Source: Chitinophaga pinensis
GTDB lineage: Bacteria > Bacteroidota > Bacteroidia > NS11-12g > UBA955
DNA: 32,346 nucleotides
Reading direction: 5' to 3'
NCBI GenBank assembly: GCA_945863965.1
Contig: CAMBBZ010000008.1
Location: 1-32,346 of the forward strand
Both the position numbers and the translations under genes were made by a program. Below the pieces are notes generated by a model. The model was not told the DNA's origin. It made no database searches and saw only the letters and a program-made list of their open reading frames with translations. The number at the start of each line of letters is the position of its first letter. Position 1 is the stretch's first letter. Shown here one piece after another: positions 3,646 to 6,867 of this stretch.

Positions 3646-3963
3646 ATGAAAACCACCCTATTCGCTTTGGCCTTGATTCTCAGTGCAGCGGTGCGGGCGC
3701 AAATTTCGCCCTCATTTCAAGTAATTCCGAATCCCGCCCACAGTCGGGCAGTCATCGAATTGAATCAAATCGATATTGAAAAGGTAGACGTGGCTATTTT
3801 CACGGTCTTAGGGACTCCTGTAAACGGAATCTATCAACAGATTCAGCGGGGCGATTCCAAAATAAACCTATATTTCCCAGATTTGCCGGAAGGTATTTAC
3901 CTAATCCGTATCCGCAGTGGTGAATTTGATAGGACCCAACGCATGAAGGTTCAACGGCAATAA
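3646..3963 (+). CDS. Signal peptide plus stand-alone T9SS type A sorting domain protein
   Basis: A 105-aa protein. Residues 1-19 are a clean signal peptide ending in RAQ. Nearly all of the remaining ~86 residues look like a type A T9SS C-terminal sorting domain: IPNPA near its start, an IFTVLGTPV strand, then LPEGIYLIRIRSG and a closing RMKV. This domain normally forms the tail of large secreted proteins and is recognised by the T9SS translocon; here there is no cargo in front of it. It lies about 100 nt upstream of the PorE-like gene on the same strand. It may be a small secreted or surface protein, a decoy or occupant of the secretion machine, or the remnant of a larger gene. The reading frame is intact. 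Confidence 0.8.
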   Translation: MKTTLFALALILSAAVRAQISPSFQVIPNPAHSRAVIELNQIDIEKVDVAIFTVLGTPVNGIYQQIQRGDSKINLYFPDLPEGIYLIRIRSGEFDRTQRMKVQRQ

Positions 3964-4065
3964 GGGCCTTGTGTAAGGGCCTTATTCAAAATAAAATGTG
4001 CCATTTTCTTTGATTTTCCAATACTAATCTATTAATTAGCATCTTAATTTAGCCAAATTGTGAAG

Positions 4066-6867
4066 ATGCGATCAACCAACCCAAGCACATTTGCCAAAAG
4101 AATGAAAAATATCATGCGTTTTGCACTCCTAAGTGTGGTAAGCGGATTGAGTTTTTGGGGTTGTGCCCCCAAATTTGAAGAAGCGAAAACATTATACGAT
4201 CAGGGATATTACGGCCAAGCAGCCGTAACATTCGAAAATGTATATCGAAACGAAAAAGATCCAGTGAAGAAAGAGCTTTCCTTATTATTGGGGGCAGAAT
4301 CCTATCGTTTGAATAACAAATACGACCGAGCCCTTAAATTATACGAGCGGGTGCTTAAAAAAGACCCTAATAATACAACCGCGCTTCTCATGAAAGCCAA
4401 TATGCTCAAGAAAATGGAAGAGTATCGTAAAGCAATCGGAGCTTACGACGACTATCTAGAGCGCGTTCCTGGCGACAGTGAAGTAATGCAGAAAATGTAC
4501 GGCTGTGAATTGGCCTTGCGTTGGACCAAAGACAGTTCCTTATTTCAAGTAAAAGAATTCAAAACAGCCAATTCAAGTTCTAACGATTGGGCCCCTATGA
4601 TGGCCTCACGAAAAGACGATGTTGTGTTTTTCGCTTCCGATAGAGAAGGCGGAATGAACAAACGCATATACAGCGGGACCATGGAACATTGGGCTGATAT
4701 TTGGTATGTTGAAGGAAAAAAAGCGAAAAAAAAACGCGGAGCAAAAACAACTGCTGAAACCGAAATAGAATGGTTACGTCCTTTATTTTCCAAATCAGCA
4801 AGTTCCAAATTTAACGAAGGTGGACTTACCTTCAACCAACGGTATTCTGAGTTGTATATAACCCAATGTGGGGGTAACGACGGAAAATCAGAAAAATGTG
4901 CCATTTACCAAATGAAAAAAGTAGGTCCCGATTGGCAAATGGGTGATGTGCTTGAAATTTGCAAAGCCGATTCTACACACAGCTACGGACACCCTGCTCT
5001 AAGTCCCGACGATAAAGTTCTTTACTTCTCCTCAGACCGTGAAGGCGGTTATGGAGGCTTCGATTTGTGGGCCGTTACTTACAGCCGCCGCTCACGTACT
5101 TGGGGAAATCCAGTAAACTTAGGTCCCTCCATTAACTCACGAGGTAACGAATACTATCCTTATTTGAACAGCCACGACAACCGACTCTACTTCAGTTCTG
5201 ATTATTGGCCTGGACTTGGCGGTATGGATATGTTTGCAGCCGACCAAACCGAGGATATTACCAAATGGGAAGATATGGAAAACCTTCGGGAGCCTCTAAA
5301 CTCTGGAGGCGACGATTTTGCGATAACCTTTACGAGCGAAAGTTCTAAAAAAGGATATTTTACCTCTAACCGTGGAACCCGCCGTAATGACGATGATATA
5401 TACGAGTTCGATGTGCTGCCTCTTGTTATTACCATACGCGGTATCGTTACCGATTGCAATACCAACAAACCTTTAGTAGGCGCTACCGTTACCATTACCA
5501 ACGATCGCGATACGTCTAAAATCATAATGAAGGCCAACGAAAATGGCGAGTATGCGGCCGATTTAAAACCGCGTACGAATTATGAAATTACTGCCACTTT
5601 CCCAGAATTATACTATTTTGAGAAGCCTCCCGTTAATCGGACTACCATGGGAATTCGGTTCTCTACCCAATTGGAGCAAGATTTTTGCTTGATTAATCCT
5701 TTGGACCAAATTTACTCATTACCCATATTTTATGATTTAGACTCTGCGGCTATCCGACCTGATGCGGCAAAGGTGTTAGATACGTTTGCGCAAGAAGTAT
5801 TAATCCGTTATCCCCGCCTAATCGCGGAATTAGGATCTCATACCGATTGCCGTGCATCTGTAGATTATAATACCCGATTGGCACAGCGTCGCGCAGATTC
5901 TGCACGCAACTATTTAATGCGCCGTTGGAATATTGATTCTGGACGTATCCTTGCCGTTGGTTTTGGAGAAACCGAACTCATTAACGACTGTAAATGTGAA
6001 GGGGCAGAAAAAGCAGGCTTTACGCCCTATGTGGCTGGGAAAACGCGTAAAATGATCATTGAAAAAGACAAAAAAGGCAATGTAATTAACAGTTATTACG
6101 ATACCTACAAAGCAAGTGAAATATCGGCCATAGAAGGAAAGCCTTTTGTTAAATGCGATGAATTTCAGCACCAACAAAACCGACGTACCACCGTTCGTTT
6201 CGCCTTTGAAGATAAAAAATCACGTGTTAAAGTGAATCAAGACGTAGATTTGAACAACACCAATAAAGGATCTAATACCCGAGATTCAGCCGCGCGATTG
6301 GATTCCTTGAATGCTAAAAATCCAGCAACAGCCGTTACTGATTTAAGTTTTGCCATTAAGTTACCCTTAACCATCATTAGTGAAGATCAGGTTTCTGTTC
6401 CGGTTATGATTCAAGACACGGAGCCTGCAATGCTCATAATCGACAATAAAGCTAAAGCCAATATCATTTCACCTGAATTGGCAGCCGAATGGTGGTCGAA
6501 AAAATTAATCACCAAAAAAGATTTCGTTAGCGGCGACAAACTTAAAGTAGGAAAAGTAAAACTACCTGGTAACCGCTTCACGGTTGATTTAGTAAAAATG
6601 GGCCGTTACGAGGTTAATGGCATTCAATTTAAAATCGACGAACGTGCTACGGGTCCAATCGTCGGTATCCGCGTATTGGATAAATACTTTAAGTCTGATT
6701 CGTACAAAACGCCAACCGAATATGTACTTATTCCGAAGCGTGTTCCTAAGGAATGGCGCGCAAAACCGGTGAAGGAAAAACCACAACGGGCTCCAAAAGG
6801 CAAAAAACCGGCCGCCAAAACGGACGATGAAAAAGCCGAAGACAAAGCCGACGAAAAAGCCGAATAA
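4066..6867 (+). CDS. PorE-like OmpA-family lipoprotein: TPR, PD40 propeller, CRD, OmpA and extra C-terminal domain
   Basis: A 933-aa envelope protein with the same domain order as PorE of the type IX secretion system. From the ATG at 4066: a hydrophobic segment ending in WGC (candidate lipid-modified Cys33, with a non-canonical lipobox); TPR repeats ~35-150; five PD40 blades ~165-450 (YFSSDREGG, YFSSDYWPG and similar); a carboxypeptidase-regulatory-like domain ~455-545; and an OmpA C-terminal peptidoglycan-binding domain ~555-715 with HTDCR and NTRLAQRRADSARNYL. Beyond that, ~775-885 resembles a retropepsin fold, with IDNKA where DTGA is expected, so it is probably not catalytic. The end is a K/E/D/A-rich tail. 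PorE is reported to anchor the T9SS to peptidoglycan. Other in-frame starts are GTG at 4060 and ATG at 4102; the latter would give the shortest signal peptide. An OmpA/PD40 protein unrelated to secretion remains possible. Confidence 0.8.
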   Translation: MRSTNPSTFAKRMKNIMRFALLSVVSGLSFWGCAPKFEEAKTLYDQGYYGQAAVTFENVYRNEKDPVKKELSLLLGAESYRLNNKYDRALKLYERVLKKDPNNTTALLMKANMLKKMEEYRKAIGAYDDYLERVPGDSEVMQKMYGCELALRWTKDSSLFQVKEFKTANSSSNDWAPMMASRKDDVVFFASDREGGMNKRIYSGTMEHWADIWYVEGKKAKKKRGAKTTAETEIEWLRPLFSKSASSKFNEGGLTFNQRYSELYITQCGGNDGKSEKCAIYQMKKVGPDWQMGDVLEICKADSTHSYGHPALSPDDKVLYFSSDREGGYGGFDLWAVTYSRRSRTWGNPVNLGPSINSRGNEYYPYLNSHDNRLYFSSDYWPGLGGMDMFAADQTEDITKWEDMENLREPLNSGGDDFAITFTSESSKKGYFTSNRGTRRNDDDIYEFDVLPLVITIRGIVTDCNTNKPLVGATVTITNDRDTSKIIMKANENGEYAADLKPRTNYEITATFPELYYFEKPPVNRTTMGIRFSTQLEQDFCLINPLDQIYSLPIFYDLDSAAIRPDAAKVLDTFAQEVLIRYPRLIAELGSHTDCRASVDYNTRLAQRRADSARNYLMRRWNIDSGRILAVGFGETELINDCKCEGAEKAGFTPYVAGKTRKMIIEKDKKGNVINSYYDTYKASEISAIEGKPFVKCDEFQHQQNRRTTVRFAFEDKKSRVKVNQDVDLNNTNKGSNTRDSAARLDSLNAKNPATAVTDLSFAIKLPLTIISEDQVSVPVMIQDTEPAMLIIDNKAKANIISPELAAEWWSKKLITKKDFVSGDKLKVGKVKLPGNRFTVDLVKMGRYEVNGIQFKIDERATGPIVGIRVLDKYFKSDSYKTPTEYVLIPKRVPKEWRAKPVKEKPQRAPKGKKPAAKTDDEKAEDKADEKAE

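Follow-up and report, generated by a model that had tools for sequence, protein, structure and literature searches.

The PorE-like lipoprotein encoded in the window (the whole stretch of DNA analysed here, 32,346 nucleotides in length) carries, beyond its regular domains, an additional C-terminal domain that is a well-supported, true member of the retropepsin fold, homologous to the DTGAS-bearing retropepsins of Bacteroidota. Loss of the catalytic motif from this domain is likewise well supported by comparison of aligned copies, and we judge the domain to be catalytically dead. The presence of a pseudo-retropepsin on PorE is a trait of a single order of Bacteroidota, whose members are uncultured and mostly from freshwater and to which the window genome belongs, and no quirk of that genome.

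Identity and regular domains of the PorE-like protein

The 935-aa protein has the domain order TPR, propeller, CRD and OmpA_C, which matches that of PorE (Table 1); this normal order had been described in the original prediction and is borne out by Pfam, the NCBIfam model T9SS_PorE and the full-length structural model. T9SS_PorE scores 379.6 bits across residues 23-638 of the ORF product, against a curated cut-off of 600, and the NCBIfam model CHU_0125_OmpA scores 335.9 bits, under its curated cut-off of 620; the careful name "PorE-like" is therefore used. The T9SS_PorE cut-off is narrow, with scores above it in only 31 of 396 class genomes. With 380 bits against a cut-off of 600, a role in the type IX secretion system (T9SS) is presumed by orthology. 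All eight reference PorE-family proteins compared (8/8) prefer the 935-aa protein over the two paralogues of the same genome (638 and 582 aa). The lipobox was read by eye; its cysteine is invariant in 27 homologues, and a lipoprotein signal is predicted. Within OmpA, D596, N604 and R611 are the counterparts of Porphyromonas gingivalis PorE D576, N584 and R591, are invariant in 27 relatives and are spaced 8 and 15 residues apart, as in the crystal structure (PMC7192894). The genome encodes a T9SS, including SprA (2236 bits), four PorP-family proteins and 53 sorting-tail matches. Just upstream of the PorE-like gene, a 105-aa ORF (window 3646-3963, + strand) consists almost entirely of a T9SS sorting tail (Por_Secre_tail, 8.5e-9).

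P. gingivalis PorE is likewise a lipoprotein of TPR, propeller, CRD and OmpA with three peptidoglycan-contact residues, and its structure comprises four domains, of which OmpA is the last (PMC7192894). Nothing follows OmpA there, whereas the window protein adds a linker of ~45 aa, the pseudo-retropepsin, a charged tail and an insertion of ~55 aa within OmpA, so that residues 776-935 (window 6385-6867) lie beyond all domains of described PorE. The OmpA insertion (residues 646-700, window 5995-6159; xGFTPY..GKTRKM..YY..YKxSEI) is absent from genus g4 and from locus L047. In addition, three loci from the genus of the window genome (L053, L054 and L055) encode ~1,050-aa proteins in which three or four OmpA-like domains stand in tandem; the later ones are close (50-58%) to the OmpA of the window PorE and contain the same insertion.

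Table 1. Features of the PorE-like gene and its product, with positions in the window
Feature	Window position	Strand	Residues	Basis or remark
PorE-like lipoprotein gene	4060..6867	+	935 aa	ORF; lipobox LSFWGC, Cys35
TPR domain	4174..4539	+	~39-160	Pfam TPR 47-142; model helices 39-154
PD40 / WD40-like beta-propeller	4552..5409	+	~165-450	PF07676 (310-337); model strands
CRD (carboxypeptidase regulatory-like, CarboxypepD_reg)	5422..5694	+	~455-545	PF13620 1.3e-9 at 458-517
OmpA_C-like peptidoglycan-binding domain	5716..6207	+	553-716	PF00691 1.9e-13; Pfam OmpA 558-649
Flexible linker	6208..6351	+	717-764	Residues 726-759 pLDDT < 50; mean identity to relatives 0.42
Pseudo-retropepsin domain	6352..6738	+	765-893	AlphaFold2; Foldseek to APRc/Ddi1; hhalign 98.8%
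Degenerate active-site loop	6442..6456	+	D795-N-K-A-K	Active enzymes have D-T/S-G-A-S there
Hydrophobic-hydrophobic-Gly strand	6655..6678	+	P866-I-V-G-I-R-V-L873	Counterpart of LLLGQSAL; Pro866 and Gly869 nearly invariant
Disordered K/E-rich C-terminal tail	6748..6864	+	897-935	pLDDT < 50

Fold and homology of the C-terminal domain

Pfam recognises no domain beyond OmpA in the protein, and no LysM match occurs anywhere along it. The original prediction had assigned residues ~775-885 to the clan AA (retropepsin) fold from three segments, VPVMIQD, LIIDNKAKANIIS and GPIVGIRVLDKYF, all of which are found in the ORF product. The retropepsin-like segment is indeed present, with slightly wider boundaries than first drawn, since the model places it at 765-893, followed by the tail to residue 935. 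AlphaFold2, run on residues 742-911 with 32 sequences, gives a mean pLDDT of 88 (94-98 in the core), and the first 16 places of a Foldseek search of this model against the PDB are all retropepsin-like, with a probability of 1.00. The best match is the Rickettsia retropepsin APRc (5c9b; E 2.5e-5), followed by the retroviral-protease-like domains of Ddi1. The proposed structure prediction and fold search thus put retropepsin-like proteases at the top, and neither a different fold nor membership in another known domain family was found. APRc and the Ddi1 RVP domain are the closest solved folds, although they share only ~10-18% identity with the PorE domain, are active proteases with D-T/S-G and stand outside any secretion scaffold. 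In the full-length AlphaFold2 model (pTM 0.52), disordered stretches precede and follow the domain (726-759 and 897-935), and its position relative to OmpA is not fixed. The strongest conservation in the domain falls on the flap-side segment I-x-K-K-D-F..G-[DE]-K...K-L-P-S-N-x-F and on the hydrophobic-hydrophobic-Gly strand.

Single-sequence Pfam scans return the window domain at E 0.15-0.2 (Asp_protease_2, E 0.15), which is no evidence by itself, and the PF13650 score of 13.2 bits lies under the gathering threshold of 24.3; the thresholds of both PF13650 and PF13975 are not reached. Across the domain family, 12 of 26 members match Asp_protease_2 (best 7.6e-5) and 10 of 26 match gag-asp_proteas (best 4.1e-5). 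Searching PDB sequences with the domain profile gave one chance match (E 1.2). A narrower domain alignment gathered 31 related loci, and the domain HMM reached L124, a relative from the same order whose DSGAS motif is intact, at 4e-10. Twelve further retropepsin relatives were recovered by a class-wide search, eleven with DTGAS or DSGAS and one, L165, with DTVAS. Eleven of these twelve were combined with L124 into an active-type alignment (A6) of 12 sequences, all of which Pfam calls aspartyl proteases. Aligned with A6 by hhalign, the PorE domain scores 98.8% (E 1.3e-16) over 125 columns, end to end, whereas control stretches of 140 residues from the TPR, propeller, CRD and OmpA of the same protein family score at most 0.8%, which indicates that the retropepsin signal belongs to the C-terminal domain. 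The profile-profile alignment places LIIDNKAKANIIS on FIFDTGASDVSIS without gaps and PIVGIRVL on PILLGQSAL. As the Pfam gathering score is not reached, membership of clan AA is drawn from this comparison together with the fold. A chance resemblance of some other beta-rich fold would fit the E of 0.15 with which the window protein alone reaches Asp_protease_2; however, the family profile, the model, the fold search and the controls agree with one another and refute it as far as computation can, leaving it next to no credibility.

The DTGAS-bearing retropepsins of Bacteroidota (PF13975/PF13650; L124, L158-L169) share the fold and the end-to-end alignment with the PorE domain, but they retain D[TS]GAS (12/13) and are stand-alone or fused to TPR or FKBP. 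Read by eye, seven such Bacteroidota loci (L158, L160, L162, L165, L166, L167 and L233), nearly all with DTG, carry their retropepsin-like domains in fusions, with partners including TPR repeats, FKBP-like domains (L160) and an M28-like/cyclophilin/FKBP chain (L233). The secreted RloA retropepsins of Pseudomonas also present an exported, dimeric bacterial retropepsin-like fold, but they possess DTG, fall into a zinc-protease class in Pfam and have no PorE context (PMC12239564).

Catalytic motif, selection and distribution

In the alignment, LIID-NKAK-ANIIS of PorE stands opposite FIFD-TGAS-DVSIS of the active-type set, and D[TS]G occurs in none of the 67 distinct PorE copies, in which DxxG[KR], DPDGS and NGEER are common forms. 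The replacement of DTG by DNK that had been noticed in the window protein therefore holds, and the loss of D[TS]G extends to every copy. Seventeen further ORFs were compared; in four of these the motif is PorE-like (for example DLIGK), and they are regarded as PorE fragments cut at contig ends, and the remaining 13 have D[TS]GAS, except for one with DTVAS. The latter (L165:1480-1863) is an otherwise active-looking retropepsin. The motif Asp, D795, is kept in most PorE copies and is invariant in 27 relatives, but it is Asn, Glu or Ile in some genera. The alternative that the domain is still a protease, with a non-canonical active site in which the retained Asp and other residues would let PorE cut a T9SS partner or substrate, would draw on this residue, which makes residual chemistry formally possible, and on the retained fold and flap-side segment. 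However, pepsins and retropepsins need the Gly and the Thr/Ser of the D[TS]G loop, both of which are gone from 67 of 67 PorE copies, and the Asp itself is replaced in some genera, so such an activity is very unlikely.

Compared with the close relative L077, pS is 0.75 and thus saturated, and no numerical dN/dS is given for this reason, while pN reaches 0.105 across the domain, against 0.075 for residues 39-716 and 0.21-0.23 for the linker and tail. Mean identity to relatives is 0.43 in the domain, 0.76 in OmpA and 0.60-0.76 in the rest of PorE. These substitution patterns indicate that the pseudo-retropepsin evolves faster than OmpA yet is plainly held by purifying selection. The lower conservation relative to the rest of PorE, together with the lost catalytic motif, would also suit the remnant of a protease fusion that is decaying and no longer has a function. 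However, the domain is intact in some 94 genomes from two families, is confidently folded in AlphaFold2 and combines near-saturated pS with a low pN; given this selection, we consider the remnant reading highly improbable.

At the family level, all 70 genomes match the PorE-like protein, some only to a paralogue. Throughout the order, the domain profile matches 95 of 108 genomes (60 of the 64 good ones); in one of these, G068, the match is to a different protein, leaving about 94 genomes, from two families, with the domain on PorE. The G068 protein (L231:635-2479, same genus) is 615 aa long, lacks any Pfam match and has a pseudo-retropepsin-like C-terminal part (partial match, E 1.7e-7), so the module may also occur on proteins other than PorE. 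Several of the non-matching genomes of the order either have a PorE truncated at a contig end (G069 and G044, for example) or show only the paralogue (for example G022), and no complete PorE orthologue without the domain was seen among those inspected in the order. A class-wide draw of 396 genomes yielded matches in PorE-length frames for 18 of 18 genomes of the order and matches in other frames for 29 others, with no PorE among the best 12 of the 29. Because 394 of these 396 genomes do match the PorE model, a missing domain does not mean a missing PorE. A phylum-wide draw added no further PorE carrier of the domain, and the new matches that were read are mostly aspartyl-protease-like with D-T-G. 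The search for the same architecture in other Bacteroidota, which had been suggested at the outset, thus places it order-wide on PorE and on no PorE outside the order in the genomes surveyed.

Longer PorEs of other lineages were considered as further carriers and rejected, as their tails are LysM-like (families f59 and f74) or of low complexity. LysM-like repeats follow the OmpA of PorE in f59 and f74 (L197, L199-L206; Pfam LysM 4.1e-13 in L197), and a repeated LysM-like pair is visible by eye in both. These PorEs resemble the window protein in adding a C-terminal module after OmpA, but the module is LysM, not retropepsin. LysM binds peptidoglycan, and its occurrence at the same C-terminal position in f59 raises the alternative that the pseudo-retropepsin is a cell-wall binder in its place, with peptidoglycan stem peptides lying in the old substrate cleft, a peptide cleft that could accommodate them. 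However, OmpA of the PorE-like protein already provides peptidoglycan binding, stem peptides contain D-amino acids, and we know of no retropepsin relative that binds peptidoglycan, all of which makes a wall-binding function unlikely.

PorEs of ~1,020 aa occur in genera g4, g5, g9 and g13 (L040-L046, L048 and L049), with ~140 extra residues after OmpA and ahead of the final domain. In hhalign comparisons, the profile of this segment scores 96.5% (E 9e-10) against the active-type retropepsins and 94.3% against the PorE domain; a plain HMM of it reaches DTGAS-bearing retropepsins at 1e-8. The segment is also without the catalytic Asp-Thr-Gly, and these proteins thus end in two dead retropepsin lobes, a tandem like that of pepsins, which carry two lobes within one chain.

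Proposed role of the pseudo-retropepsin

Published work describes PorE as a peptidoglycan-binding lipoprotein of the outer membrane (PMC7192894) that also binds PorP and possibly links the PorK/N ring to the cell wall (PMC9143113). In the proposed arrangement, the lipid would anchor PorE to the outer membrane, the TPR and propeller would hold T9SS partners such as PorP, OmpA would grip peptidoglycan, and the pseudo-retropepsin, on its flexible linker of ~45 residues, would act as a periplasmic gripping module. Two options can be envisaged. Retropepsins function as homodimers (PMC12239564), which makes PorE-PorE pairing a natural reading, in which PorE molecules would pair through the ancestral retropepsin dimer face. 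Alternatively, an extended polypeptide strand may be held under the flap. In the two-lobe genera, the two lobes of a single chain could close on each other as they do in pepsin, and either option would then be intrachain. The loss of catalysis combined with the retention of the fold and flap side points to a gripping or pairing module, consistent with the binding module that the original prediction had suggested in place of a protease, and the two options taken together make it probable that the dead retropepsin serves as a putative pairing or strand-gripping module for a protein partner. It may further be proposed, tentatively and with considerable doubt, that PorE of this order acquired a retropepsin, which lost catalysis, and came to bear a second dead lobe in several genera, giving rise to a putative pepsin-like, non-cutting clamp that would hold a polypeptide of the secretion machine in the periplasm, which might be a T9SS component or a substrate in transit.

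Eukaryotes are known to have binding modules derived from proteases. Literature searches, in which subscription journals were thinly covered, returned no description of such a module within a bacterial secretion scaffold, no report that combines a retropepsin and type IX secretion, or a retropepsin, OmpA and Bacteroidetes, and only Babesia for pseudoprotease with retropepsin. Within the same coverage, no earlier description was found of a PorE whose fifth domain is a dead retropepsin, which agrees with the initial statement that no such domain was known in described PorE proteins, the published structure ending at OmpA (PMC7192894); the combination therefore appears to be new.

Collectively, a whole order of Bacteroidota uses a dead aspartic-protease fold as the fifth domain of PorE, and some genera use two. 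Since its place is taken by LysM in some other PorEs and by nothing in others, the module offers a defined, removable part for identifying the contacts of PorE at its far end.
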